Shown here in pieces: positions 7,920-62,925 of a stretch of 64,000 nt of DNA (the first letter of the stretch is position 1; every line of letters starts with the position of its first letter). The stretch lies in NCBI GenBank assembly GCA_013813715.1, contig JACCRF010000121.1, positions 1 through 64,000 on the forward strand, read 5' to 3'. Under the pieces are notes generated by a model, which saw only the letters and a list, made by a program, of their open reading frames with translations, did not search any database and was not told the origin of the DNA. The stretch comes from Gemmatimonadaceae bacterium (GTDB lineage: Bacteria; Gemmatimonadota; Gemmatimonadetes; Gemmatimonadales; Gemmatimonadaceae). A program made the position numbers and the translations under genes.

Positions 7920-8204
7920 TCAGGGAGAGAGGCCCAGTCGTCGCAGCGCTTCAGCGGCCGAGGGAAGGCCGGGCCTTATCTCCAGAGCCTTCCTGTAGGC
8001 GGCGATGCCGGCTTCCCGCTGCCCGTCGGCAAGGAGCCCTTCGCCGAGGCTGTCCCACGCGTTTGCTGATCCGGGAAACGCGCGCGGAATGGCGAATGCA
8101 TGCGGGGTCGTCATGGTTGGTTGGACGTTCGGACCCGGCAGAAAGTTTCCGGGGCCGTGGCGCGCGCGATCCATTACGGTGACTCGCGCACGATTCGTGA
8201 ACAA
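7920..8204 (-). pseudogene. TPR-domain fragment, probably a gene remnant
   Basis: The C-terminal 50 residues of this 94-codon frame form one clear tetratricopeptide unit (SANAWDSLGEGLLADGQREA and YRKALEIRPGLPSA). Such a unit commonly ends longer serine-hydrolase or TPR proteins. The N-terminal 45 residues look like non-coding sequence, and the OsmC gene starts 49 bases beyond. The most likely reading is the truncated 3' end of a lost larger gene; a short functional TPR protein is the alternative. Confidence 0.4.
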
Positions 8205-8253
8205 GTAGCATCTTCTGAGCGGAGACCACGACTACCCATCATTTTCGAGGCGA

Positions 8254-8742
8254 ATGGCAAAGACCCACGAGTATGCAACCCGGCTGACGTGGAATGGCAA
8301 TCTCGGCACCGGAACATCGACTTACGCCGGCTACGGCCGCGACTACACGGTGGTTATTGACGGCAAGCAGGAAATTCGCGGAAGCGCCGACCCCATGTTT
8401 CGCGGCAGCGCGGAGCTTCACAATCCGGAGGATCTGTTCGTCGCGGCGATCGCCGCGTGCCACATGCTCAGCTACCTGGCGCTGTGCGCGAGGAAAGGAG
8501 TCTCTGTGATGGCGTATGAGGACAGCGCAGCCGGTGTGCTCGCCCTGAGCGCGGACGGAGGAGGAAGGTTCGAGCAGGTGACATTGAATCCCGTCGTGAC
8601 GATCGCCAATGCAGACAACGAACCGCTTGCACTCGCCTTGCACGACGAGGCGCACAAGCTGTGCTTCATCGCTGCATCGTGCAGCACGCCCATACATCAC
8701 ACCGCAACAGTGAAAGTTTCTGGCGGAGGCGAGGCGCGTTAG
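8254..8742 (+). CDS. OsmC-family peroxiredoxin-like protein
   Basis: This 162-residue protein matches the OsmC/Ohr fold: an N-terminal beta region, the motif NPEDLFVAAIAACHML with the peroxidatic-type Cys69 and nearby Glu59, and a second cysteine motif near Cys143 (AASCSTPIH). Such proteins reduce organic hydroperoxides in the cytoplasm using a cysteine pair. The start is the ATG at 8254; the length is normal for the YhfA/OsmC-like branch. Substrate and regulator are unknown. It is a single + strand gene between opposing genes. Confidence 0.85.
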   Translation: MAKTHEYATRLTWNGNLGTGTSTYAGYGRDYTVVIDGKQEIRGSADPMFRGSAELHNPEDLFVAAIAACHMLSYLALCARKGVSVMAYEDSAAGVLALSADGGGRFEQVTLNPVVTIANADNEPLALALHDEAHKLCFIAASCSTPIHHTATVKVSGGGEAR

Positions 8743-43719: not shown

Positions 43720-45993
43720 CTACCGCTTCGGCGTGTGGCGGGCAACCAGTGCATCGGCTTCCCCAGTTCTTCCGGTATTCTTCAGAAGCTGGGCGTAGTC
43801 CTTCACTGTTTCAGCGACGTTCGGGTCGAGGGGCCCGAGCGCGCGCAGGCGAATGTCGAGCGCGCGCTGATAGACCGCTTCGGACTCGGCCGGCCGGCCG
43901 GCGTCGCGGAGCATTCCGGCGAGCCCGTTCAGCGTTACTGCGATGCTGGGATTCCCCCGCGTCAGCCGGGTCTCCTTGATCGCCAGCGCGCGTCGGAAGA
44001 GCGGTTCCGCCTCCTTATAACGACCTAGCTTCCAGTACGTCTCCGCAAGATTGTTCAGAATCGCGGCCATGTTGGGATGCGTCGGGTCGAGCGTGCGCTC
44101 GAAAATGCCGCGGGTCCGCTCATACAGCGGCAGCGCGGCGGCGTAGCGACCCTCGCTCCAGTAAATCGCGCCGAGATTGTTCATCACCGAAGCGAGTTCC
44201 GGATGCCCGGGTCCGAGGCGCCGTTCCTGAATCGAGATGCTGCGCCGCATCAGCGGCACCGCTTCCTGGTTGCGCTGCTGCGCCCAGTAGACAACCCCGA
44301 GTCCGGCAAGACTCTTCGCGAGCGCGCGACTTTCGCCGCCGCCGGGCCTTCGCTCGTCGAGACTGATCGCACGCTTGTACATGGATTCCGCTTCGGAGTT
44401 GCGTCCCTGCTTCCAGCGCAACGCAGCGATGCTGCGTACCACGACTGCAGTTGCCGAGTCCGCGGCGCCGGGGAACCGTTCCAGGATTGCGAGAGCGGGC
44501 TGGTAGTGTGATTCCGCCAACGCGAGGTCACCATGGCCCACCAGCGCGTCACCCAGTGCCAACTGGGTTTCGGCCACCGCCGGATCCTCGGCGCCCAGCG
44601 CCCTCTTGCGCGTCTCGAGCGCCGTTTCGAGCTGAGCCCGCGCCGCGTCGTACAGACCGAGGGATGCATATGCAGTCCCGATGGTATGCATCATCCTGCC
44701 CTGAAGCCGCGGCTGCTGGGCCAGATCAACCAACGAGCTTTTCGCCCCGCGATCGAGCAGCTCGCGGGCCGTGATACTGTTGCCCAACGCCTCTCCCGGT
44801 TCCGAAACGCGAAAGAGATTGATCATGAAATCGCTCACCTGGGTCGCTGCGGCGGCCTCTTCGGCCGCGTGGCGTTCCGCGCGCGTGGCGCGGATCAGTC
44901 CCGTTGCCGCGAACACCGCGCTCAATACAAGCGCCAGCACCGCCACCGATGTCGCGGCCACACCAGCCCGGTGCCGTCGGACGAACTTGCCCAGGCGATA
45001 CGCCGAAGTCGGAGGACGCGCCACCACCGGCTTGTGCGCCAGAAAGCGCTCGATGTCGGCGGCGAATCCGGTCGCGGTTTCGTACCGCCGAGAGCGATCG
45101 GGCTCCAGCGCTTTCATTACTATCCAGTCGAGGTCACCCTTCAGGTCGCGCCGCAGGTGCTCGGGATTCGTCCGGCGCGCGTCGGCGATCGCCTTCTGCC
45201 GCTCTCGAACCGCGGTGTACCGCGCGCTCGGCCGCGGCGCGTTCGTATCACCTGAGGCCAGGCGGAATATGAACGCCTGCATCGCCTGCCCCGTCGGTTC
45301 CGCTGGGAGGCTGCCAACGAGCAGCAAATACAGAATGACGCCGAGCGAGTAGATGTCCGTCCGGGTATCGACATCTATTCCGGATGACTCGGCCTGCTCC
45401 GGGCTCATGTAGGCGAGGGTACCGATGGGATATCCCGCCTGCGTGACGAGCGTGTTCTCCGTGAGCCGCATGCCCAGTGCCTTGGCGATGCCGAAGTCAA
45501 TCACCTTCGGCAGCGGCTTCCCGTCCTGTTCGGCGACCAGGACGTTGGTCGGCTTCAGATCGCGATGGATAACTCCCTTCTGGTGGGCGTGCTGCACCGC
45601 CTGGCAGACGCAGATGAAAAGCCGCAGTCTCTCTTCTGTCGAAAGACGCCGGGTGTCGCAGTACTCGGTGAGCGGCAGACCCTTCACCAGCTCCATCGCG
45701 AAGAACGGGTCGCCCTCGGCAGTCTCGCCGGCCTGAAGGACCTTCGCGATCCCGGCGTGATCCATGAGCGCCAGTGCCTGGCGCTCTGCTTCGAAGCGAG
45801 CCCTGATCTCGCGCGATCCGAAGCCGGCGCGCACTACTTTGAGGGCGACGTTGCGCCGGACGGGGCCCGTTTCGGCGGCCTCGTACACCGTGCCCATCCC
45901 ACCCTCTCCCAAGACGCGAACGATCTTGTAAGGTCCGATCCGCTCCGGATACTGGAACGACGACTCAGTCAGTTCCGAATCGACCGTGGGCAC
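43720..45993 (-). CDS. Membrane Ser/Thr protein kinase with C-terminal TPRs
   Basis: The 757-residue protein has an N-terminal Hanks-type kinase domain: glycine loop LGEGGMGTVY, Lys52 in ALKVV, the catalytic Asp145 in HRDLKPTN, and DFG at 166-168. One membrane helix follows at about 343-365, then roughly seven tetratricopeptide repeats (about 410-740). The kinase domain is therefore cytoplasmic and the TPR part periplasmic. It probably senses an external signal. An exported small protein gene lies 32 bases upstream on the same strand. Confidence 0.92.
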   Translation of the reverse strand: MPTVDSELTESSFQYPERIGPYKIVRVLGEGGMGTVYEAAETGPVRRNVALKVVRAGFGSREIRARFEAERQALALMDHAGIAKVLQAGETAEGDPFFAMELVKGLPLTEYCDTRRLSTEERLRLFICVCQAVQHAHQKGVIHRDLKPTNVLVAEQDGKPLPKVIDFGIAKALGMRLTENTLVTQAGYPIGTLAYMSPEQAESSGIDVDTRTDIYSLGVILYLLLVGSLPAEPTGQAMQAFIFRLASGDTNAPRPSARYTAVRERQKAIADARRTNPEHLRRDLKGDLDWIVMKALEPDRSRRYETATGFAADIERFLAHKPVVARPPTSAYRLGKFVRRHRAGVAATSVAVLALVLSAVFAATGLIRATRAERHAAEEAAAATQVSDFMINLFRVSEPGEALGNSITARELLDRGAKSSLVDLAQQPRLQGRMMHTIGTAYASLGLYDAARAQLETALETRKRALGAEDPAVAETQLALGDALVGHGDLALAESHYQPALAILERFPGAADSATAVVVRSIAALRWKQGRNSEAESMYKRAISLDERRPGGGESRALAKSLAGLGVVYWAQQRNQEAVPLMRRSISIQERRLGPGHPELASVMNNLGAIYWSEGRYAAALPLYERTRGIFERTLDPTHPNMAAILNNLAETYWKLGRYKEAEPLFRRALAIKETRLTRGNPSIAVTLNGLAGMLRDAGRPAESEAVYQRALDIRLRALGPLDPNVAETVKDYAQLLKNTGRTGEADALVARHTPKR

Positions 45994-46025
45994 GGTGCTC
46001 TCTCTCGTACGCAGTCGTTACCGGG

Positions 46026-46463
46026 TCACCTGATGATGATAATGTCGGGATCGATGATCACCGTGTCCGACATCGCGGCATCGCGAACACAGATTGCCGA
46101 GACCACGTACTGGTATTTGCTGCCCTTCTCGGCGGCATCGAGTTCCTTCGCGCCGGCTGGCTGGTTCTTCTTGCTCTTGTAGGGCGTTTTTTTCTTGAAC
46201 GGCCACGGCTTGCTGGCCTTCGCCTTCACTTCCATTTCCGTAACATTCGCCGCCGCGTCGAGTCTCCAGTTGATCGAATCGCCTGGCTTCATGCTGATAG
46301 ACCACGGAGTCAGCGAGAAGGAGACGCCGCGTCCGGCAAGGCAGTCGACTCGGACATCTACATTGACAGTCTGAGGACTGCCCTGTGCATCAGCCGAGCC
46401 GTTCGTCTCTATGGCGACAAATACGAGAACTGCACCCAAGATGAGCGGAACTCTGGCGCGCAT
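46026..46463 (-). CDS. Small exported protein upstream of the kinase gene
   Basis: The 145-residue product has a signal peptide (PLILGAVLVFVAIETNGSADA). Its mature part is beta-rich (VDVRVDCLAGRGVSFSLTPW, then WSISMKPGDSINWRLDAAAN), with a basic Lys-rich stretch near KKKTPYKSKKN. A cupredoxin-like fold is possible, but no copper-site set is clear. I chose the ATG at 46463 because the longer frame has no signal. It precedes the kinase gene by 32 bases and may feed its external domain a ligand. Confidence 0.6.
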   Translation of the reverse strand: MRARVPLILGAVLVFVAIETNGSADAQGSPQTVNVDVRVDCLAGRGVSFSLTPWSISMKPGDSINWRLDAAANVTEMEVKAKASKPWPFKKKTPYKSKKNQPAGAKELDAAEKGSKYQYVVSAICVRDAAMSDTVIIDPDIIIIR

Positions 46464-46588
46464 ATGTACTCCGATGGAGGGAGCAGAACAGTGGGAGAGG
46501 CCGGGTTGGGACGCAAGAGCGTGACGGATCCGCGATCGGGCTTCCACCGGGGCGGTCTCGCATGCGCCTTGCACTGACCTCGGCCCAA

Positions 46589-47215
46589 ATGACTCAACAG
46601 ATCCGAGCCATCTTCCTTCTGGGAACCCTCAAGAAAAAGCAGGTACTGTCGCACACACAGGCACTTTGCGAGGTAGTAGCGGAGATTTTCAAGTCTCAGG
46701 AAGACGTCGCCAGCGAGATCGTCCGCCTCCGCGACTACGATATTCAGCCCGGTACAAAGACAGAAATAGACGACGACGACTTTCCAAAGATTCTCGACAG
46801 GATGCTGGCTTCGGACATCATCATCTTCGCTACGCCGATCTGGTGGGGAATTCAGTCCTCGCTCATCCAGAGAGTCATCGAGCGGCTCGACGAGTTGAAC
46901 GATGAGTTGCTCGAAACCGGCAAGTCGGAATTTGCCAACAAGGTGGGCGGGATCGTAATTACGGGAGGGGAGGACGGCGCCGAGCACATCATCGGGAACA
47001 TCCTGAACTTCATGAGCTGGAATGGATTCACGATTCCGCCAGCGCCATCGGTCTCCTGGCTCGGCGAAGTTTCGGATGAGACCAAGGACTCGTTGAAGCG
47101 GAAATTCAAGAGAGAGTCGGTGTATGGTATGGCGAAGACCTTCGCGCGGAACGAAGCGTTTCTTGCGCGACTCCTCAAGCATCATCCTTTCCCCGAGCAA
47201 CCGCAGAGCAAATGA
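46589..47215 (+). CDS. Flavodoxin-like NAD(P)H oxidoreductase
   Basis: The 208-residue protein has the flavodoxin-like fold of NADPH-dependent FMN reductases: AIFLLGTLKKKQVLSHTQAL (flavin-phosphate loop region), ASDIIIFATPIWWGIQSSLI (the typical flavin-ring motif) and a later GGIVITGGEDGAEHI. It probably binds FMN and reduces quinones or flavins. I chose the ATG at 46589; 46562 is an alternative nine codons earlier. Its stop overlaps the start of the next gene by four bases. Confidence 0.75.
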   Translation: MTQQIRAIFLLGTLKKKQVLSHTQALCEVVAEIFKSQEDVASEIVRLRDYDIQPGTKTEIDDDDFPKILDRMLASDIIIFATPIWWGIQSSLIQRVIERLDELNDELLETGKSEFANKVGGIVITGGEDGAEHIIGNILNFMSWNGFTIPPAPSVSWLGEVSDETKDSLKRKFKRESVYGMAKTFARNEAFLARLLKHHPFPEQPQSK

Positions 47216-48426
47216 AACGTGACGGTCTGGTGTGGCTTCTGCCGATGATGATGTTGGGCGCGAGCTCGCTCCCCGCGCAGGAATCTGAGCGGCCCGCCTC
47301 GGGCCCGGGCTTTGGAGGCGTGCTAGCGAAAGTCGAAGGGGTGGCGCGACGCGTCGGCTCTGTGCTCGACAAGCCCTTGCACCCGATTGTAGGCGGTGTC
47401 GGGCCCGGCGGCGGCATCGGGGCGGGGCTCGAGTACAGCGCACCGACTGCGAACCCATGGGAAGCATCCGCGCGCGCGCTCTACACTTTGCGGCAGTACT
47501 GGAGAGCTGAGGCCGTCGCAGGATATCACGGCCGCCGGGCTGAGGTGGAGACATTCGCTCGGGGACGCGACATGTCGCGCCTCGACTTCTACGGTCCCGG
47601 CACCGACAGCGATGTCGACGACCGCACCAACTTTCGACTGCGTGAGTGGGTGATCGGCGGCCATGGCCGCGGGCGTGTATTGCCGTGGCTCGCGGTCGGC
47701 GGCCGGGTCGAGGAGCTATGGCCCGATGTTGATCGCGGCCGCAGGGACTCGCGGCCCAGTATCGAGCAGCGCTTTCAGGAAGCTGACGCGCCCGGCCTCG
47801 GCTCACAGCCGCGCTTTGGCCGCTACGAGGCGTCGTTCGACATCCACGTTCCGCCGGGCGTCGGCGAAGCATTGTATCAGGGCACGAAGTATCGGATGAG
47901 CTACGCGATCTATTCTGACCGGGGGCTCGACCGGTTCAGCTTCCGCAGAACCGAAGTCGAAGCGCAGCAGCGGTTCGCGCTCTTCGGCCCTCACCGTCGC
48001 CTGACGTTGAGCGGATGGGCTTCCACGTCGAACCCAGACGCCGGCAACGCCGTTCCCTTCTATCTTCACCGCACGCTGGGCGGTGACTCAGATGTGCGAA
48101 GCCTGAATGAAGAGCGGATCGGATCGGACGGTACGCAGGCAACCTTGCGCGGGTTCCGCAACCTTCGGTTTCGGGATCGTCATCTTGTGCTGCTGCAGGC
48201 CGAGTACAGAGTGCCGATGTGGGGGCCGGTGGATGCGTCGGTCTTCGCCGATGCCGGCAAGGTCACGAGCCGCCGAGAGGATCTCGATTTTTCGGACCTC
48301 AAGCGCGACTTCGGCTTCGGCCTGAGCCTCATGCGCGGGCCCAAGACCGCCGTGCGCGTGGACGTAGGATTTGGTGGTGGCGAGGGGACGCGGATGTTCT
48401 TTACAGTTGGCGATGTGCTCAAATGA
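47212..48426 (+). CDS. BamA/TamA-like outer-membrane barrel protein
   Basis: The 404-residue protein starts with a signal peptide (GLVWLLPMMMLGASSLPAQ) and continues as a beta barrel of the surface-antigen/Omp85 type. Visible are PGGGIGAGLEYSAPTANPWE, repeated aromatic-ended strands, and a conserved block near LRGFRNLRFRDRHLVLLQAE. POTRA domains appear to be missing, as in small Omp85-like proteins. It is coupled by ATGA overlap with the upstream reductase gene and followed closely by the kinase-like gene. Confidence 0.8.
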   Translation: MKRDGLVWLLPMMMLGASSLPAQESERPASGPGFGGVLAKVEGVARRVGSVLDKPLHPIVGGVGPGGGIGAGLEYSAPTANPWEASARALYTLRQYWRAEAVAGYHGRRAEVETFARGRDMSRLDFYGPGTDSDVDDRTNFRLREWVIGGHGRGRVLPWLAVGGRVEELWPDVDRGRRDSRPSIEQRFQEADAPGLGSQPRFGRYEASFDIHVPPGVGEALYQGTKYRMSYAIYSDRGLDRFSFRRTEVEAQQRFALFGPHRRLTLSGWASTSNPDAGNAVPFYLHRTLGGDSDVRSLNEERIGSDGTQATLRGFRNLRFRDRHLVLLQAEYRVPMWGPVDASVFADAGKVTSRREDLDFSDLKRDFGFGLSLMRGPKTAVRVDVGFGGGEGTRMFFTVGDVLK

Positions 48427-48461
48427 GCGCACTCAACCGGCGGAGACCTGGAAGGAGTACG

Positions 48462-49388
48462 ATGAGCCATCGGCATCTGCGCGTGATTGCGCTCGGCGTT
48501 ATTGGCGTTGCGTGCGCGACCAATCAGCGACCGATCATCAGCCCCGTCCAGATGGCCGAATTGTGGGAGCTGCCAACTGACCTCGAGCGCCGCGACTTGC
48601 TTCGAGGGCCCGTTGGAAGCGGCGGCGCGCTGAACCCGGATGAAGAGTTCGAGTTCAAGGACATCAAGGAGTCGGGGACGCAGCCGGGATACGACGTCAA
48701 GGATTCCAAGGGGCGTGAGTGGAGCGTGAAGCTGGGCCAGGAAGCGCGTACCGAAGTTGTCATGTCGCGCCTCGTGTGGGCACTCGGCTACCATCAGCCG
48801 AGCGTGTATTACCTGCCGCGGTGGACACTCGTTCGCGATGGCAAGAAGACCGTCCATCCGAAAAGCCGGTTTCGTCTCGAAGACGCGAAGAAAGTATCGG
48901 AATGGTCGTGGCGAATGAATCCGTTTTTCGATACGCAGCCACTGGCCGGACTTTACGTCCTCATGGTGATGGTCAACAACTGGGACCTGAAATCACAGCA
49001 GAACGCAGTTTATGAGGTCAAGGAGAGTGAGCCGGGTCCGCGCATTCAGTATGTGGTCAAGGATCTCGGCGCGTCTCTTGGGCGGAGCGCGTGGCCGGTG
49101 CAGGGGACGAAGGACGATCCGGAGGGATTCGAGAAGGAGCCGTTCATCGAGGAGGTTGTCGGCAACCGCGTCCGGTTCGGTTATCAGGGTGCGTGGCTCG
49201 AGCCGCAGTTGGTGAATAGCGCGACGCCGCACGACGTTCGCTGGATCTCGGGATTATTGTCGCGGCTGACTCCGAAGCAATGGAGCGATGCGTTTCGCGC
49301 TGGCGGCTTCAGCGAGGCCGAGGCCGATCGTTACATCAGACGGCTGCGCGAAAAAATCGATGAAGGTCTCAGGGTCGGGGCGTTCTAG
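48462..49388 (+). CDS. Exported protein with kinase-fold-like motifs, uncharacterised
   Basis: The 308-residue protein begins with a hydrophobic segment (VIALGVIGVACAT) that could be a lipoprotein signal, although the lipobox is imperfect. The body shows kinase-like positions in order: Lys90 in WSVKLGQ, Glu98 in ARTEVVMS, a catalytic-loop-like VNNWDLKSQQN (Asp175, Lys177, Asn181), and VVKDLGASLG (Asp201). These resemble HipA/CotH-like atypical kinases. An ideal Shine-Dalgarno (GAAGGAG) sets the ATG at 48462 over the upstream 48423 start. Which substrate it modifies outside the cytoplasm, if any, is unknown. Confidence 0.7.
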   Translation: MSHRHLRVIALGVIGVACATNQRPIISPVQMAELWELPTDLERRDLLRGPVGSGGALNPDEEFEFKDIKESGTQPGYDVKDSKGREWSVKLGQEARTEVVMSRLVWALGYHQPSVYYLPRWTLVRDGKKTVHPKSRFRLEDAKKVSEWSWRMNPFFDTQPLAGLYVLMVMVNNWDLKSQQNAVYEVKESEPGPRIQYVVKDLGASLGRSAWPVQGTKDDPEGFEKEPFIEEVVGNRVRFGYQGAWLEPQLVNSATPHDVRWISGLLSRLTPKQWSDAFRAGGFSEAEADRYIRRLREKIDEGLRVGAF

Positions 49389-53687: not shown

Positions 53688-53951
53688 CAGGGGAGAGAAG
53701 CCAGAGGCATAGATGTTGAGTTTCGAGTCAACTCTACCTGCGATCCGATGGTGGCGCATGATACTTTACCTGCGCCCGGTTCAAGGGTGAGGTACGAGTT
53801 GAGCAAATAATCGTGCGATTCTGCCGGCCCCGCCGTTTCTGGCCTCTCGGTGGAGAACGGGATCAATAGTCCTTCCAGGGCGAGGACGTCGCTTGACCGA
53901 CCGTTGTTGCCTCTAGCAACTCGTGACTATGCTTCTGGCCTCTCTCCCCTG
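53688..53951. repeat. Palindromic intergenic element (MITE-like)
   Basis: CAGGGGAGAGAAGCCAGAGG at 53688 and its inverse ending at 53951 match over 25 bases with two mismatches; the arms enclose about 214 bases. A third CTGGCCTCTC copy lies at 53839. Small hairpins inside include GTTGA...TCAAC near 53715 and GTTGC...GCAAC near 53905. The right arm shares the 18-base GAGAGGCCAGAAGCATAG with 33538-33555. No transposase is present. The rest of the 53617-54028 gap holds no gene that I can support. Confidence 0.6.
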
Positions 53952-54028
53952 TGTATTTCTCGGTTGACCTTGTCCAGAAGCCGTGCGAGCAAATTGACCC
54001 CGCTTCGCGAGGCCCCCAAACTTTCCTG

Positions 54029-56176
54029 ATGCCAGCTATAACTCAGCCCGCCATTCCCGAGCGCATTCGCGGCCTGGCCGATGTCGCCAATAACCTGGCC
54101 TGGAGCTGGCACCGCGAAGCTCGCGCCCTGTTCCGTATGATCGACGAAAACCTCTGGCACCTCTACCGCCACAATCCCGTCGACCTGCTCACACACATCG
54201 ATCCGATGCGCCTGGTGGTGCTCGCGACGAACCCGTCCTTTCTGGAGCGATACGACGCAGTGACGCGCTGGCTCGCCGCCGAGACGTCGTTCGAGCATAC
54301 CTGGTTCAGCCGCGCGTATCCCGATCTGCAGGGAAAGACGATTGCCTACTTCTGCGCTGAGTTCGGCCTCCACAGCTCCGTACCGATCTACAGCGGCGGC
54401 CTCGGCGTGCTGGCGGGAGATCACTGCAAGGCAGCGTCGGATCTCGGCGTTCCACTCGTCGGCGTAGGCATTCTCTATCGCGCCGGGTACTTTGACCAGC
54501 GTATCCGGCTCGATGGGTGGCAGGAGGACAGCAACGTCAACTTCGATACGGCGCGCACACCCATCACGGCGCTGGCCGGCCCGGGCGGCGAGCCGTATCT
54601 CGCGACCGTGCAGACGTTCGGACGCAACGTGCACGTGCGCGCGTCGCGGCTTATGGTGGGACGAACGCCCATTATCCTCCTCGACACCGACCTGGAACAG
54701 AACCACGCGGACGACAGGGAGCTGCTCAGCAAGCTTTACGCAGGCGGACCCGCCCTGCGTCTCAGGCAGGAATGGCTGCTCGGCGTGGGCGGCGTGCGCG
54801 TGCTGCGCGCGCTCGGCTACGATCCGTCGGCGTGGCACGCAAACGAAGGCCACGCGTCGTTCATGCTCGTAGAGCGCGTACGCGAGTTGACCGCCGGGGG
54901 AATGCCCTTCGACGAGGCGGTGCGTGTAGTGCGGGCGCCGAGCACCTTCACTACGCACACGCCGGTTCCGGCAGGCCACGACACCTTCGCCCGCGAACAG
55001 ATCGCAAGCTGCGCCGGCCCGGTGTGGGAGGAAATGGGGATCGACCCAGAGACGTTCCTGGCGATCGGCAAGCATCCGGTGCTCGGCAACGACACGTTCC
55101 ACATGACGTCGACGGCGATCCGACTCTCGCGGCGTGTTAACGCCGTCTCGCGCCGCCATGGCGTGGTGACCCGAACGCTCTGGAAGGAGCTGTGGCCGGG
55201 CTACGAAACCGACTCGGTTCCGATCGGGCATGTCACGAACGGCGTGCACCTGGCCACGTGGATGGCAAACCCCGTGATGGCGCTCCTGGACTCCAAGCTC
55301 GGGTCGCATTGGGGCTCGCACTACGTCGAGCCCGGCGCCTGGAACTCCGTCCTTTCGATCGACGACGCCCAGCTCTGGCAGGTGCACCTTGCGCTCAAGA
55401 GCACGTTCATGCGCCTCGTGCGCGAGGAAGCCCGGCATGCCTTCGCTGAGCGCTCTCATGAGGCCGCTCAGCTCGTGGGTTCGGGGCTCCTGCTCGACCC
55501 GGACGCGCTCACGATCGGCTTCGCGCGGAGGTTCGCAACGTACAAGCGCGCCAATCTGATATTCCGCGACGTCGAGCGCCTCCGGGCCCTGCTGGTGAAT
55601 ACGTCACGGCCTGTTCAGATCATCTTCGCGGGCAAGGCGCATCCCGAGGACACCCCGGGCAAGGAGGTACTGCAAAGCGTTCACCACTTCACGCGTGATC
55701 CTCTCTTCGAGGGTCGGGTAGCGTTCCTCGAGGACTACGACATGCACATCGGGCATCTGCTCGTGCAGGGCGTTGATCTCTGGCTGAACCTGCCGCGGGT
55801 GCCGCTCGAAGCCTCGGGCACTAGCGGGATGAAGGCGGCACTCAACGGCGTCCCGCAACTGAGCACGATCGACGGCTGGTGGGAGGAGGGATTCGACGGG
55901 ACCAACGGCTGGGCGATCCCCGAGGCCTCGAGCCACGATGCGGCGGACGCCGAAACGGCGAGCAATCTCTATTCGCTCCTTGAGACGGAGGTTGTCCCCC
56001 GGTTCTACGACCGGGAGGACGGAATACCGTGTGCCTGGGTGACGATGATGAAAAATGCGATACGTGTCGCAGGCGAGAAATTCACTGCGCGCCGCATGCT
56101 CGAAGAGTACGTTGAGAAGTACTACGTTCCTTCGATGACGGCCGCCGTCACACCGGACGATCCACCAACCGCCTGA
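54029..56176 (+). CDS. glgP: Alpha-glucan (glycogen) phosphorylase
   Basis: The 715-residue protein belongs to the thermostable, unregulated phosphorylase branch. It has the N-terminal PERIRGLADVANNLAWSWHR, the long EFGLHSSVPIYSGGLGVLAG region, and the PLP-lysine motif EASGTSGMKAALNG with Lys602. It releases glucose-1-phosphate from glycogen. It lacks the allosteric segments of animal enzymes. I chose the ATG at 54029, past the repeat region. It starts the glycogen gene run on the + strand and is followed six bases later by glgA. Confidence 0.92.
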   Translation: MPAITQPAIPERIRGLADVANNLAWSWHREARALFRMIDENLWHLYRHNPVDLLTHIDPMRLVVLATNPSFLERYDAVTRWLAAETSFEHTWFSRAYPDLQGKTIAYFCAEFGLHSSVPIYSGGLGVLAGDHCKAASDLGVPLVGVGILYRAGYFDQRIRLDGWQEDSNVNFDTARTPITALAGPGGEPYLATVQTFGRNVHVRASRLMVGRTPIILLDTDLEQNHADDRELLSKLYAGGPALRLRQEWLLGVGGVRVLRALGYDPSAWHANEGHASFMLVERVRELTAGGMPFDEAVRVVRAPSTFTTHTPVPAGHDTFAREQIASCAGPVWEEMGIDPETFLAIGKHPVLGNDTFHMTSTAIRLSRRVNAVSRRHGVVTRTLWKELWPGYETDSVPIGHVTNGVHLATWMANPVMALLDSKLGSHWGSHYVEPGAWNSVLSIDDAQLWQVHLALKSTFMRLVREEARHAFAERSHEAAQLVGSGLLLDPDALTIGFARRFATYKRANLIFRDVERLRALLVNTSRPVQIIFAGKAHPEDTPGKEVLQSVHHFTRDPLFEGRVAFLEDYDMHIGHLLVQGVDLWLNLPRVPLEASGTSGMKAALNGVPQLSTIDGWWEEGFDGTNGWAIPEASSHDAADAETASNLYSLLETEVVPRFYDREDGIPCAWVTMMKNAIRVAGEKFTARRMLEEYVEKYYVPSMTAAVTPDDPPTA

Positions 56177-56182
56177 CCGACC

Positions 56183-57700
56183 ATGCCCAGACCCGCCGCG
56201 CGCCGGCGAAGCACTTCTCGTGCGTCACCGCTCCGGTCGGCATCGGGAGATGCCGTCACCGTGGTTCACCTCACCGCGGAATACACTCCGTACGCGCGCA
56301 CCGGTGGGCTCGCCGAAGCAGTGCAGGGCCTCGCGACATTCCAGGCGAAGCAGGGAATCCCTGTCGTCGTGATCGTCCCGCTGTACAGGGTGATCCGCAG
56401 CGCCGCGAAGAATCTCGTGCAGATCGGAACGGAGATTACTGTGTACGTGGGTCCGCGCCGCGAGCAGGTCCGCTTCTTCCGTGATGCCGACATTCAGAGC
56501 GGCCCGACGGTCATCTTCGTCGATCACCCCGGATACTTCGACCGCGAAGGAATTTACGTCGAACGTGGTGCCGACTACCCGGACAACCCGCGCCGCTTCG
56601 CCCTCTTCACACGCGCGGCGCTCGAGGCGATTCCATTGATCGCGAAGGGTCCGGTGCTGGTGCACGCGCACGACTGGCATTCGGCGCTCGCATTCGTCTA
56701 CATGCGATCGTACTCTGATCTGCGCGGGCGCTTTCACGGCACCCCGGCCGTCCTTTCGGTTCACAACGCCGGCTACCAGGGACACTTTTCGCCGGCCGTG
56801 GTCGGCGATCTGGGAATCCCTCCGGAGACGTTCAACTACCATCAGATGGAGTGGTACGGAAAGGTCAACTTCCTCAAGGGCGGCCTCGCCTTCTGCGACT
56901 TCGCGGTGACGGTGAGCCCGAGCCACGCCGAGGAGCTGCGGACGCCTGCGGGAGGCTTTGGCCTGCATGCGATGTTCGCGTCCATGGGTGACAGGTTTCA
57001 GGGAATCACGAACGGCATCGACCAGAGCATCTGGAATCCCGCGACGGACACGCAGGTCAGCGCGAACTTCACGCGCCAGGACACGTCGAACAAGTCAGCC
57101 TGCAAGGCCGCTTTGCAGCGAACCTTCGGGCTGCCGCAACGCAAGCGTGTTCCGATCTTCGGCATGTGCGGCCGACTGGTCAAACAGAAGGGATTCGACA
57201 TCATCCTCGCCAGCGGCGCCCTCAGCGCGCTCGACGCTCAGTTCGTTTTCCTCGGAGAGGGCGACGAGCGATACAAGGCGGGGCTCAGGAGCATCGCCGC
57301 GCGGCGGCCCCAGCACGTGAGCTCGGAATTCATTTTCACCGACAAGGTCGAGCACCGGCTGATCGCGGGCTGCGACCTGTTGCTGATGCCGTCGGAGTAC
57401 GAGCCATGCGGGCTTACGCAGATGCGCGCGCAACGTTACGGTGGCCTGATCATCGGCCGGCGTGTCGGCGGGATCAGCGACACGGTCCACGACGACGCGA
57501 CCGGCTTTTTGTTCGATGCTTTCACTCCGCGCGGCTTCGACCAGGCGGTTGGCCGCGCGCTGCACCGCTACTACGACCCAGGAGCGTGGCAGCCGCGCAT
57601 GTACGAGGCGATGGGCCGCGACTTCGGGTGGGACAGCTCGGCGAGCCGCTACCTCCAGGTCTACCGCCGCGCGCTCGCCGCCGCCAATCCCGAGAGCTGA
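56183..57700 (+). CDS. glgA: Glycogen synthase (GT5)
   Basis: The 505-residue protein has the GT5 glycogen/starch synthase form. The N-terminal nucleotide-sugar motif reads RTGGLAEAV (Arg39 instead of the usual Lys), followed by HAHDWHSALAFVYMR and the C-terminal half with GMCGRLVKQKGFD and EPCGLTQMRA. It adds glucose from ADP- or UDP-glucose to glycogen. A basic N-terminal stretch of about 20 residues precedes the domain. It starts six bases after glgP. Confidence 0.92.
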   Translation: MPRPAARRRSTSRASPLRSASGDAVTVVHLTAEYTPYARTGGLAEAVQGLATFQAKQGIPVVVIVPLYRVIRSAAKNLVQIGTEITVYVGPRREQVRFFRDADIQSGPTVIFVDHPGYFDREGIYVERGADYPDNPRRFALFTRAALEAIPLIAKGPVLVHAHDWHSALAFVYMRSYSDLRGRFHGTPAVLSVHNAGYQGHFSPAVVGDLGIPPETFNYHQMEWYGKVNFLKGGLAFCDFAVTVSPSHAEELRTPAGGFGLHAMFASMGDRFQGITNGIDQSIWNPATDTQVSANFTRQDTSNKSACKAALQRTFGLPQRKRVPIFGMCGRLVKQKGFDIILASGALSALDAQFVFLGEGDERYKAGLRSIAARRPQHVSSEFIFTDKVEHRLIAGCDLLLMPSEYEPCGLTQMRAQRYGGLIIGRRVGGISDTVHDDATGFLFDAFTPRGFDQAVGRALHRYYDPGAWQPRMYEAMGRDFGWDSSASRYLQVYRRALAAANPES

Positions 57701-57710
57701 AGGAGCCGCA

Positions 57711-59378
57711 ATGGATTTCGTCCTCGCGCTGCACAGCCACCTGCCCTACGTGCTGAATCACGGACGCTGGCCGCACGGCAGCGACTGGATATGCGAAGCC
57801 GCCGTGGACACCTACCTGCCACTGATCGACTCCCTGCAGGCGCTTGCGGACGAGGAGATCGCCGCGCCGGTGACGGTCGGCATCACACCGATCCTCGCGA
57901 ACCAGTTGGCGAGCCCGGTCTTTGAGAGCGAGCTGCGACAATTTTTCGAGCAGCGGCTGGGAGCTTGCGACGAAGCCGAAGCAGAGATGCGCAACACCCC
58001 GGACGCGCATCTGATTCCCGTCGTGGGCTACTGGCGCGATCGCCTCGAACGCCTCCTCTCGCTCCACGAGTCCCTCAACGGCAACATCTTGAGCGCGTTC
58101 AGGGATCTCGAAGAGAACGGACGGCTCGAGCTCATCACCTCGGCGGCGACGCACGGGTTCCTTCCACTGCTGGCGCGCGACGAGAGCATCCGCTTTCAAC
58201 TGGCCGTCGGCCGGGACGAGCACGAACGCCTGTTCGGGCGGCGTGCGGCAGGCCTCTGGATGCCGGAATGCGCCTATCGGCCAGCGGGACCCTGGCAGCC
58301 GCTGCCAAGTGCTCGCGCCTATCGCCATCGCGACGGGCTGGAGACGTTTCTAATGGAGGGCGGCGTGCGATTCGTCTTCGTCGACGCGCACCTCGCAAAA
58401 GCTGGCCGGCCCCTTGGCGTTTACGGGGAGCTTCCGACGTCCCCGCACGAGCTGGTGCAGGCCCGGCAGCCGAGAGAGCCCCGCACGCCGCATTCGCCCT
58501 ATCGGCCGTACTGGATAGGGGAGCACGGCCGCCGTCTCGCGCCACGCGCACTAATCCGCGACCCGCGCTCGTCGATGCAAGTCTGGTCGCGACACGGCGG
58601 ATATCCCGGTGACGGCGCCTATCTCGAGTTCCACAAAATCCGGCATCCCGGCGGCCTCAAGATGTGGCGCGTCACGTCGCCGACCGCCGGACTAGGCGCC
58701 AAGCTGGCGTACGAACCGGAGCTCGCGAGCAGCCAGGTGCTGCGCCACGCGACGCACTTCGCCAAGCTGCTCGGACGTGTCGGAGCAACGGTCCGGATGC
58801 AGGGCGGTGAGCTGATCGTCGCGCCATTCGACACCGAGCTGTTCGGGCATTGGTGGTTCGAGGGCGTCGACTTCGTCGAGGAGCTCTACCGGCAGATCGA
58901 CCTGCAGGGCGAAGTTCGGCCGCTCACCGCCTCGTCGCACCTGGACAACGCCCGCTCGGACGACGCACTGCACCTTACCGCCGGCTCGTGGGGAAAGGAC
59001 GGGGACTGGAGCATGTGGCTGAATCCCGAGACCGCGTGGACATGGGAGAAGCTCTGGCCGCTCGAGGAGGAGTTCTGGAGTCTGGCGCCCGAGGGCATCG
59101 GACGGCCGGAGCTGCATTCTGTGCTGGCGCAAGCCGCGCGCGAGCTGCTCCTCGCCCAGTCGTCCGACTGGCAGTTTATCATCACCACCGGCGAGGCCGC
59201 GGATTACGCCGAGGCGCGCATCAGTCTCCACATCGCGGACTGCGCAAAGCTCATGCACGGCCTGCGGGGCGGCGATGGCGATCTCGAGAGCGCGCAGCGG
59301 CTCGCAGGTGAGCTAGCGGTTCGCGACGCTGTCTTCCCCAACATTCTGGATTCTTTGAAGGCGTGTCTGAGCGCGTGA
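57711..59378 (+). CDS. GH57 1,4-alpha-glucan branching enzyme
   Basis: The 555-residue protein is a GH57 enzyme of the branching-enzyme type. FVLALHSHLPYVLNHGRWPH forms the first conserved His region, GLWMPECAY holds the nucleophile Glu186, and FDTELFGHWWFEG holds the acid Asp374. A DUF1957-like C-terminal helical domain follows. It makes alpha-1,6 branches in glycogen. AAGGAG before the ATG at 57711 confirms the start. It is ten bases after glgA and overlaps the next gene by 16 bases. Confidence 0.88.
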   Translation: MDFVLALHSHLPYVLNHGRWPHGSDWICEAAVDTYLPLIDSLQALADEEIAAPVTVGITPILANQLASPVFESELRQFFEQRLGACDEAEAEMRNTPDAHLIPVVGYWRDRLERLLSLHESLNGNILSAFRDLEENGRLELITSAATHGFLPLLARDESIRFQLAVGRDEHERLFGRRAAGLWMPECAYRPAGPWQPLPSARAYRHRDGLETFLMEGGVRFVFVDAHLAKAGRPLGVYGELPTSPHELVQARQPREPRTPHSPYRPYWIGEHGRRLAPRALIRDPRSSMQVWSRHGGYPGDGAYLEFHKIRHPGGLKMWRVTSPTAGLGAKLAYEPELASSQVLRHATHFAKLLGRVGATVRMQGGELIVAPFDTELFGHWWFEGVDFVEELYRQIDLQGEVRPLTASSHLDNARSDDALHLTAGSWGKDGDWSMWLNPETAWTWEKLWPLEEEFWSLAPEGIGRPELHSVLAQAARELLLAQSSDWQFIITTGEAADYAEARISLHIADCAKLMHGLRGGDGDLESAQRLAGELAVRDAVFPNILDSLKACLSA

Positions 59379-60850
59379 CGCGATCGGTGGTGGTGCACGG
59401 CCACTTTTACCAACCGCCTCGCGAGAAGCCCTGGACCGGATTGGTTGACCGCGAGCCGACTGCCGCCCCGTTTCACGACTGGAACCGGCGCATCGAGAGC
59501 GAGTGCTACGCGCCGATGGCGAACGCGCGCGTGCTCGACACCAACGGAAACATTGAGCACCGGGACAACCTGTACGCGGCGATGAGCTTCGACGTCGGGC
59601 CGACGCTCTTTGAGTGGATGGAGACGAGCGCACCGGTGACCTACCGCGCCATCCTGGAGGCGGATCGGATCAGCGCGGCGAGGCTGGGACACGGCAACGC
59701 GATCGCAATGCCATATCACCATACAATTCTTCCACTGGCATCGCGGCGCGACAAGGTGACAGAGGTGCGGTGGGGGATCGCCGACTTCCGGCGCCGCTTC
59801 GGGCGCGAGCCGGAAGGCATGTGGCTGCCTGAAACGGCGGTCGACGAGGAGACGCTCGAGGTGATTGCGGAAGCGGGCATCCGCTTCACCGTTCTCGCGC
59901 CGCATCAGGTGGAGCCCCCTTCTCCCAACGGGCTGCCGCTGCGCTTCCGCGCCGGCAAGGGGCGGGAAATTGCACTCTGCGTCTACAACGGTGTGCTCTC
60001 CGGCGAAATCGCCTTTGGCCGCCTGCTCGCGGACGGCGCGCGGCTCGCGAGTCGCCTGGCGCCTGCCGAGTCTCCCGCCGCGGGCGCGTCTCCAACTGGT
60101 GCCGTCGCCATCACCGCAGCCGCCCTGGATGGAGAGACCTTCGGGCACCATCACCGCTTCGGCGAAATGGCGCTCGCCCGCGCATTCCGGATTGTCGCCG
60201 AGCGCGAAGACGTCCGGATCGAGAACTTCGCCTCGTTCCTCGCCAGGAATCCGCCGCGCAACGATGCGGTGCTGGTCTCGCCAAGCTCGTGGAGCTGCTT
60301 GCACGGAATCGAGCGGTGGCGGTCGGAGTGCGGCTGCCGAATGACATTGAGTAAGCCCACGAGCCAGGCGTGGCGCGGCGCGCTCCGGGAGGGGCTCGGG
60401 TGGCTGGCGGGCGAGCTGCACCAGGTATTCGCGCGCGAAGGACGGGAGGTCTTCTCCGTCGATCCATGGCAGGTGCGGGACGGCTACGGCGAGGTGATGG
60501 GCTCCTCGGCGGCCACCGTGCGAGCATTCGTGGCAGACTCCGTCATGCGGCCCGTTGATGACGCGCGCATCGAGCGCGCGGCCGAGCTGCTCGAGCTCGA
60601 GCGCGGCGCGCTCCGCATGTTCACCTCGTGTGCATGGTTCTTCGACGATCTGGCTCGAATCGAGACGATCCAGGTGCTCCGCTACGCAGCGTTCGCGATC
60701 GAGCTATCGGGTGACGCCGCGCGGCTTGAAGACGGCCTGCTCGCCCGCATTGGCGACGCCACGAGCAACGATGTCGCCGAGGGTACCGGGCGGGACATCT
60801 GGCGGACGAAGGTGAAGCCACGGCATCCGGCGTCCTCCCGCCACGCATGA
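59363..60850 (+). CDS. GH57-family protein with DUF3536-like C-terminus
   Basis: The 495-residue protein is a second GH57 member. VVVHGHFYQPPREKPW is the first motif, GMWLPETAVDEETL holds Glu157 as nucleophile, and ALDGETFGHHHRF holds Asp256. It continues with a C-terminal region of the DUF3536 kind. Its substrate is an alpha-glucan, but whether it hydrolyses or transfers is unknown. It starts with GTG inside the previous gene, and its stop overlaps the next start (ATGA). Confidence 0.8.
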   Translation: MSERVTRSVVVHGHFYQPPREKPWTGLVDREPTAAPFHDWNRRIESECYAPMANARVLDTNGNIEHRDNLYAAMSFDVGPTLFEWMETSAPVTYRAILEADRISAARLGHGNAIAMPYHHTILPLASRRDKVTEVRWGIADFRRRFGREPEGMWLPETAVDEETLEVIAEAGIRFTVLAPHQVEPPSPNGLPLRFRAGKGREIALCVYNGVLSGEIAFGRLLADGARLASRLAPAESPAAGASPTGAVAITAAALDGETFGHHHRFGEMALARAFRIVAEREDVRIENFASFLARNPPRNDAVLVSPSSWSCLHGIERWRSECGCRMTLSKPTSQAWRGALREGLGWLAGELHQVFAREGREVFSVDPWQVRDGYGEVMGSSAATVRAFVADSVMRPVDDARIERAAELLELERGALRMFTSCAWFFDDLARIETIQVLRYAAFAIELSGDAARLEDGLLARIGDATSNDVAEGTGRDIWRTKVKPRHPASSRHA

Positions 60851-62925
60851 CGCGACAGCTGGAAACTCCGGCGCAGCCCTCCCTCGCGAAGCCCCTGGCA
60901 GCCGTCAATCCGCTCCGGTTCGTGTTCGGCGTGCACCAGCATCAGCCCGTCGGCAATTTCGGTTTCGTCTTCGAGGAGCACACTCGCGACGTGTACCGGC
61001 CGCTGCTCGAGCGACTCGTGGAACGGGAATTCTTCCCCATCGTCATGCATCTTTCGGGGCCGTTGCTCGACTGGCTGGAGTCGAGCCACAGCAGTTATCT
61101 CGATCTCGTCGGTGAACTGGCGGCGGCAGGAAAGGTGGAGCTGCTGCTCTCGGGCTACTACGAGCCCGTGCTCGCGGCGCTGCCGCGTGACGACCGTGTC
61201 GAGCAGATACTCTGGATGCACGAGGCGCTCGAGTCGCGCTTCGGCGTCGACGCCACCGGCCTCTGGCTCACCGAGCGCGTCTGGGAGCCGGAGCTCGCCG
61301 CCGATCTCGCCGACGCGGGCGTTCGCTACGTACTCGTGGACGACCGTCACTTTCTCGTGAGCGGATTTCAGCGCGAGCAACTCCACGTCCCCTGGCGCAC
61401 CGAGAGCGACGGCAAGCAGGTCGACGTGCTCACGATCGACGAGCGGCTCCGCTACCTGATTCCCTTTCGGCCGCCGGTCGAGATCGCGGCTTACGTGCGC
61501 GATCTTCGCGAAGCAGGCCAGCCGCTCGCGATCTTTGCCGATGACGGCGAGAAATTCGGAGGCTGGCCGGGCACGCGCGAATGGGTGTACGAGAAGGGCT
61601 GGCTCCGTGACTTCCTGAACGTAATGGAGCGGATGGTGGCGGCGGGCGAGATCGTGATGAGCACCTGTGCCGATGCGATTCAGGCGGTTCGGCCGGGCGG
61701 TCTGGCGTACCTGCCCACTGCTGCCTACCGGGAGATGGAAGCCTGGTCGCTGCCCGCAGTTGCCGCGACGAGACTCGGCGCGCTCGAGACGGAACTCGGT
61801 ACTGAGCGCGTATCCGGGCGCGACGGCGCTTTCGTGCGGGGCGGGCACTGGCGCAACTTCCTCGTCAAGTATCCGGAGTCGAACCGCGCACACAAGAAAA
61901 TGATGGCGCTCTCGGCGCTCTGTCGCAGGCGCGGCGACCCGCCGGAAGCGCGGCGCGCCATCGGCCGCGCCCAGTGCAACGACGCATCGTGGCACGGAGT
62001 GTTCGGCGGCCTCTATCTCCCGCACCTGCGCGAGGCGGTGTGGCTGAATCTCTCGCGCGCCGAAGCGGAGCTGCGTGCGGGCGAGAGCCTGACCGCGGAG
62101 ACGCTGGACTTCGACGCTGACGGCAGCGACGAAGTGTGGGTTCATTCCGCGCGCTTCTCGGCCGTCGTGTCACCCGCTCGCGGCGGCGCTCTCATAGAAT
62201 ACACGATTTTCCGGACCGGGGTCAACTACGCCGACGTTCTGACGCGGCGCCGCGAAGCTTATCATGACACGGCGCTCGCCGAAGCCGCGCGCGCGGTGAA
62301 GGTCGCTCAAGCCACGGCCTCCAGGGTCGACTCGGCACGTGTCGTTGCCGGGACAGCCAGGACGGCCGATGGCTCACGTGAGAGCGCCGACCTGTCGCAC
62401 GCCGATACCGGCGGCGTGGCGAGCATTCACGACCTCGAGGGGTCGATGTCGCTCGTCGAGCGGCCGGCGGTCGATCTCGACGACCGGGCGCTGTTCGTCG
62501 ATCGCGTACTGGGCGCGGAAGTGACGGCCGACCAGCACGCACGGGCGTCCTACACTCCGATCAAGAGCTGGGCGCGTGCTTTACTCGAGTTCGAGGTGAT
62601 ACAGGAGCGCGACGCGGTGGAGGTCGTCTGCGCCGGCGACGGTCTCACAAAACACATTCGCTTTGCCGAGGATGGCTCGATCACCGTTTCGTGGCGTTGG
62701 AATCATTCGGCATTCGAAGCCGGCACCCGCTTCGCCTCGGAGATCTCGCTCTTCCACCCTTTGGAGCTCGAGGCGGCGCCGACCGCGACTCGCTGGGTGG
62801 CGCCTGTCGAAACGGTCGCGAAATCCGAGAAGGGACTCGACCGGACGGTTCAGGGAGAGTCGGTCACTCTACTGTGGAATGCCTCGCTCGGAGGCGCGAC
62901 CCTCGGAGTTCGTCCGATTCCGTGA
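60847..62925 (+). CDS. GH57 alpha-amylase/4-alpha-glucanotransferase
   Basis: The 692-residue protein is a third GH57 enzyme. Its motifs are VFGVHQHQPVGNF, GLWLTERVWEPEL with the nucleophile Glu143, and FADDGEKFGGWPG with the acid Asp at 232-233. The DUF1925/DUF1926-like C-terminal beta domains match amylase/glucanotransferase proteins. It probably reshapes glycogen oligosaccharides. The 3' end overlaps the convergent esterase gene by 62 bases. Confidence 0.85.
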   Translation: MTRQLETPAQPSLAKPLAAVNPLRFVFGVHQHQPVGNFGFVFEEHTRDVYRPLLERLVEREFFPIVMHLSGPLLDWLESSHSSYLDLVGELAAAGKVELLLSGYYEPVLAALPRDDRVEQILWMHEALESRFGVDATGLWLTERVWEPELAADLADAGVRYVLVDDRHFLVSGFQREQLHVPWRTESDGKQVDVLTIDERLRYLIPFRPPVEIAAYVRDLREAGQPLAIFADDGEKFGGWPGTREWVYEKGWLRDFLNVMERMVAAGEIVMSTCADAIQAVRPGGLAYLPTAAYREMEAWSLPAVAATRLGALETELGTERVSGRDGAFVRGGHWRNFLVKYPESNRAHKKMMALSALCRRRGDPPEARRAIGRAQCNDASWHGVFGGLYLPHLREAVWLNLSRAEAELRAGESLTAETLDFDADGSDEVWVHSARFSAVVSPARGGALIEYTIFRTGVNYADVLTRRREAYHDTALAEAARAVKVAQATASRVDSARVVAGTARTADGSRESADLSHADTGGVASIHDLEGSMSLVERPAVDLDDRALFVDRVLGAEVTADQHARASYTPIKSWARALLEFEVIQERDAVEVVCAGDGLTKHIRFAEDGSITVSWRWNHSAFEAGTRFASEISLFHPLELEAAPTATRWVAPVETVAKSEKGLDRTVQGESVTLLWNASLGGATLGVRPIP

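Follow-up and report, generated by a model that had tools for sequence, protein, structure and literature searches.

Three co-directional open reading frames lie on the plus strand of the window, the whole 64-kb stretch of DNA analysed here. The first opens at 46562/46589, and they encode an FMN-reductase-like protein, an Omp85-like outer-membrane barrel and a kinase-fold protein (Table 1). The reductase and barrel genes share the four bases ATGA (47212-47215), and a strong ribosome-binding site precedes the third gene. An earlier note, made from the sequence, had described this arrangement at 46589-49388 as well as a hydrophobic N-terminus of the third product followed by kinase-like positions (Lys90, Glu98, WDLKSQQN and KDLG), and the letters agree with it on both points, with NNWDLKSQQN around Asp175 and Asn181. 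On the minus strand, positions 43720-46574 encode a Ser/Thr kinase with a TPR-like tail and, at 46026-46574, a small secreted protein; the two genes are also neighbours in the congeners L185, L186 and L187. Judged by eye, 53951-62925 appears to hold consecutive genes of alpha-glucan/glycogen metabolism, with phosphorylase-, synthase- and GH57-like members.

Table 1. Coordinates of the genes and predicted features at the locus, and of TLC genes at related loci
Feature	Coordinates	Strand	Remarks
FMN-reductase-like protein	46589..47215	+	Pfam PF03358 (FMN_red), E 5e-17, over the Pfam cut-off
Omp85-like outer-membrane barrel without POTRA domains	47212..48426	+	404 aa, signal peptide
Shine-Dalgarno GGAAGGAG of the kinase gene	48450..48457	+	4 nt 5' of the ATG; from the sequence
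Kinase-fold protein gene	48462..49388	+	308 aa; compact form; likely exported, probably lipid-anchored
Cys18, lipobox-type cysteine (VIGVAC; -3 non-canonical)	48513..48515	+	Cys in 20/50 compact sequences
Lys90, predicted nucleotide-binding lysine (WSVK)	48729..48731	+	50/50; K in every large homologue aligned
Asp175...Asn181 (DLKSQQN), predicted catalytic loop	48984..49004	+	D175 50/50
Asp201, predicted DFG-like metal-binding Asp (KDLG)	49062..49064	+	50/50
TLC gene, L229	9252-11528
TLC gene, L231	9537-11810
TLC gene, L214	3882-6971
TLC gene, L207	12100-14382

A predicted atypical kinase fold in an uncatalogued family

AlphaFold, supplied with an alignment of ten natural sequences, modelled the 308-aa protein with a pLDDT of 82 and a pTM of 0.82; apart from the signal region and a single short loop, no part fell below a pLDDT of 50. 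Kinases filled the top rows of a Foldseek search with this model. In the VIA-align comparison with the PDB the best match was CtkA (Z 12.6), alongside Fam20 (10-11.1), PI4KII-alpha (10.7), a bacterial Ser/Thr kinase (10.4), HipT (10.0), HipA and actin-fragmin kinase (both 9.8) and CotH (9.4); below these atypical kinases (Z 9-12.6) the next rows fall to 5-7. The model thus supports a two-lobed atypical kinase fold of the HipA/CotH/Fam20 sort, the type that the earlier note had proposed.

Sequence searches returned nothing comparable. The window protein had no match in Pfam at E values up to 1 (the CotH, HipA and Fam20C models included), in NCBIfam, in PADLOC, in a plasmid search or, with profiles included, among PDB sequences, and nothing of weight in PHROG. 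Pfam likewise matched neither three compact relatives (E up to 10) nor twelve large ones (E up to 0.1), and NCBIfam holds no model for the compact form. The protein is a member of an uncatalogued family, one without a Pfam or NCBIfam model.

Among the structural matches, HipA and HipT belong to cytoplasmic toxin-antitoxin systems, whereas the window protein carries a predicted export signal, has no HipB-like neighbour that we could see and lacks a HipA Pfam match. The Fam20 secretory-pathway kinases share the fold and the likely location outside the cytoplasm, but they are eukaryotic Golgi proteins with no sequence match to the window protein.

The family comes in two forms, a compact one of about 310 aa found in Acidobacteriota and a large one of about 570 aa (range 545-600) found in the window's phylum and in Acidobacteriota, which are homologous (hhalign E 3.4e-24). 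The compact form occurs in 47 of 396 Acidobacteriota genomes but, among 394 genomes of the class to which the window belongs, only in the window's own. A first scan of genome contigs with the window protein alone as query gave no match. The second used an alignment that included two family variants which are not database sequences and served only for choosing conserved patches; its matches were confirmed with the window protein, and all loci used are database DNA.

Predicted catalytic residues and export signals

Residues were counted in 50 compact sequences, the window protein and 49 others, with 29-51% identity to the window protein where measured. Five positions (K90, E94, D175, D201 and G203) never vary, and 48 of the 50 sequences retain E98, which goes beyond chance; the lysine and aspartates singled out earlier are indeed conserved in homologues. 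The reading of WDLKSQQN as a kinase motif stands for Asp175 and has to be qualified for the residues behind it: the canonical D+5 position holds Gln in the window protein and six others (7/50) and Asn in 42/50, and the window protein's Asn181 falls at D+6, where 44 of the 50 sequences have Asn. All large homologues aligned keep K, D...N and D, with Asn at D+5 throughout, and many of them lack the alpha-C Glu. The conserved catalytic set, taken together with the modelled fold, would fit an active phosphotransferase.

The hydrophobic N-terminus of the window protein ends at Cys18, in a weak lipobox (VIGVAC) with Gly at -3. Compact homologues also start with a hydrophobic stretch, not always followed by a cysteine at the lipobox place (Table 1), and most large homologues carry canonical lipoboxes such as LAGC, LASC and VAGC. 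Judged by these sequences, the kinase-fold protein is likely exported; it may also be lipidated and could reside at the outer membrane.

The barrel-kinase pair

The window barrel matched the Pfam Omp85 model with 29.4 bits against a cut-off of 24 and NCBIfam Omp85_fam with E 1.3e-14, under that model's cut-off. Its 404 aa matched the barrel domain and no POTRA model in Pfam; kinase-linked barrels range from 346 to 506 aa. An AlphaFold model from two sequences reached a pLDDT of 27, and the barrel identity therefore rests on the Pfam match. In each of the seven genomes where a compact kinase is paired with a barrel, the genome-wide best match to the window barrel was the kinase-adjacent one; about two such barrels occur per genome.

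A barrel gene lies immediately upstream of the kinase gene, on the same strand, in seven of 49 compact loci, and the other 42 have no adjacent barrel. In the window's phylum it lies directly upstream at 17 of 19 large-kinase loci, which were found by kinase search alone without use of the barrel. Barrel searches also led to large kinases with the barrel directly upstream (L207, L208, L211, L213 and L214). Paired genes often overlap by 1-4 bases, by one base in L214, which belongs to the window's order. Across nine large pairs the median identity is 40% for the kinases and 28% for the barrels. At L217 (1644-5109), one barrel is followed by two large-form kinases in tandem.

In a tree, a single clade unites the seven compact pairs, and the window pairing stands apart from it. 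Barrel and kinase were therefore either paired long ago or came together on several occasions; the large-form pairs speak for an ancient pairing.

The earlier note had proposed a synteny search for all three genes. Synteny outside this genome was borne out widely, in two phyla, for barrel and kinase and failed for the reductase, which is absent near the compact homologues at all 49 loci and of which a congener lacking both barrel and kinase has a copy with 79% identity. On both counts a three-gene unit that includes the reductase was rejected: the reductase is a local neighbour, ATGA-coupled to the barrel gene here and outside the conserved unit.

The closest relative of the window's kinase, at 50% identity, is L019 from an Acidobacteriota genome. 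Both barrel and kinase were sought in 18 congeners and were absent from all 18, while the flanking genes on both sides are genus-typical, with copies 65-80% identical in congeners. The window lineage therefore probably gained the two genes together. None of the congeners keeps both flanks of the pair together, so there is no clean empty site. In view of the flanking genes' congener copies, contamination of the assembly was rejected.

Other neighbours and a possible phosphoryl donor

In L229, L231, L214 and L207 (Table 1) a co-directional TLC ATP/ADP transporter gene (PF03219) lies directly upstream of the barrel-kinase pair; in L220 and L227 such a gene adjoins the kinase on the opposite strand. 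The family was not found in 14 control genomes and is thus not a common gene. It was not found in the window's genome either, so supply by TLC cannot be general. The TLC/NTT proteins known best are those with which intracellular bacteria and plastids import host ATP; those of the relatives, unlike these classic importers, adjoin a putative envelope kinase. In L214, TLC forms a fusion protein with HEAT repeats and a cNMP-binding domain.

Other genes accompany the compact kinases. DUF4956 lies downstream in 18 of 49 loci, a metallophosphatase is adjacent in eight of 49 (N-termini signal-peptide-like where read), and PPK1 and a DSP-type phosphatase with a signal peptide lie upstream in three of 49 each. 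The 64-kb window contains no metallophosphatase, PPK1 or DUF4956, and neither DUF4956 nor PPK1 was matched near the large kinases of the window's phylum. Together with TLC, these neighbours suggest an envelope kinase module with a supplied phosphoryl donor.

Elsewhere in the window's genome, on contig 175 (L190, 316-4855), a DUF4956 protein, an exported 362-aa protein and PPK1 follow each other in one run. The 362-aa protein has the kinase-like motifs GNTDFSINGLHN and FDFDFSG and no Pfam match; the run thus places a second exported kinase-like protein beside polyphosphate synthesis. PAP2-type phosphatases were matched by Pfam near some kinases (L208, 3338-5107; L020, 4562-5404). L208 also encodes another exported protein, which weakly matches PI3/PI4-kinase, and L211 (9773-11615) has, by eye, a similar pair. 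Thymidylate-kinase-like genes lie 2-3 kb upstream of the compact kinase in L128 (7798-8889, minus strand) and, at 7939-8616, directly behind the kinase in L019.

Discussion

We consider the kinase-fold protein to be an exported, envelope-anchored and active atypical phosphotransferase that forms one unit with the POTRA-less barrel encoded upstream, and put the probability of this reading at roughly 0.6. It best explains the computed evidence as a whole: the kinase fold, the conserved catalytic residues, the export-type signals and the conserved gene pair. The earlier proposal of an envelope kinase working with an Omp85-like barrel thus gains support from modelled fold, invariant residues and synteny. 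Points that weigh against our reading are the Gln at D+5 in the window protein and six other compact sequences, the alpha-C Glu missing from many large homologues, the absence of TLC from the window's genome and of metallophosphatase, PPK1 and DUF4956 from the window, the 42 compact loci with no barrel beside the kinase, the separate position of the window pairing in the tree and the non-canonical lipobox. An N-terminal lipid or signal anchor would hold the exported kinase, of the HipA/CotH/Fam20/PI4K type, in the envelope, most likely on the outer membrane beside the barrel, and its substrate may be an envelope protein or a glycolipid. The barrel, presumably in physical contact with the kinase, could be its docking partner or let the kinase, or what it makes, pass through. 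Phosphorylation outside the cytoplasm might be reversible, with the envelope receiving ATP or polyphosphate as donor, as the neighbours in relatives would suggest. More tentatively, and with more doubt than confidence, we can picture a phosphorylation machine of the diderm envelope in which a lipid-anchored kinase and its dedicated POTRA-less barrel are served, in some lineages, by ATP exported through TLC/NTT and opposed by exported phosphatases.

CotH kinases, known from the Bacillus spore coat, invite another view of the family. They share the atypical fold, and CotH, a polyphosphate polymerase and DUF4956 have been described beside Gram-positive pel clusters (PMC7112168). Compact relatives of the window protein likewise adjoin DUF4956 and a polyphosphate-making enzyme; this type of cluster occurs in some of them and is absent from the window. 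The core could accordingly be a polyphosphate system of kinase, DUF4956 and PPK1 (or VTC), with the barrel as one of several optional partners. The DUF4956 and PPK1 genes at compact loci and the run on contig 175 speak for such a system. The window family differs from CotH in lacking a Pfam kinase match, in its link to a barrel, in having PPK1 as the polyphosphate enzyme and in its lipoprotein-type signal. Against a polyphosphate core, the constant partner in the window's own phylum is the barrel, and no DUF4956 or PPK1 match was seen near the large kinases there. We think such a core unlikely.

The barrel might instead be a surface-export device for the lipoprotein, whose kinase would then act extracellularly on secreted or neighbouring molecules. 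The overlaps between barrel and kinase genes would fit such a device, as would the existence of noNterm, an Omp85 subfamily of the same size (about 400 aa) whose barrels also lack N-terminal domains (PMC4104836). The authors of that study propose a role in membrane-protein biogenesis for noNterm proteins, which argues against export of the kinase, and we hold the export reading to be doubtful. What sets the present barrel apart from noNterm-Omp85 is its conserved pairing with an exported kinase, a pairing that we did not find in the open-access papers searched.

The fold could also bind a nucleotide for other chemistry (AMPylation, glutamylation or polyphosphate phosphotransfer), or serve as a pseudokinase scaffold for the barrel. 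The lack of a PDB sequence match to any solved kinase would agree with this, as would the Gln at D+5 in the window protein, the loss of the alpha-C Glu from many large homologues, and PPK1 and DUF4956 beside several compact relatives. Yet both phyla retain K, D...N and D, which is unusual for a pseudokinase, and the neighbours include two unrelated types of exported phosphatase; a departure from kinase activity appears rather improbable to us. An accidental arrangement of the three genes, with no functional tie between them, holds for the reductase, which is not conserved with the pair. That other genes flank most of the compact homologues would agree with it, but a barrel immediately upstream at 17/19 and 7/49 loci, where a genome has only about two such genes, rules out chance for barrel and kinase and makes this reading very improbable overall.

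The atypical kinase fold and exported kinases of the CotH and Fam20 type are already known. The barrel-kinase(-TLC) module was not found described in the open-access papers searched, in keeping with the earlier note, which knew of no system of such form.

To our knowledge, diderm bacteria offer few examples of protein or lipid phosphorylation beyond the cytoplasm, and their periplasm is regarded as lacking ATP. If the envelope machine pictured above is real, ATP-driven phosphorylation would take place in a compartment held to be ATP-free. With an uncatalogued kinase family linked to a barrel in two phyla, and to TLC in several genomes, the envelope substrate and the phosphoryl donor become testable questions, and POTRA-less Omp85 barrels gain a candidate partner.
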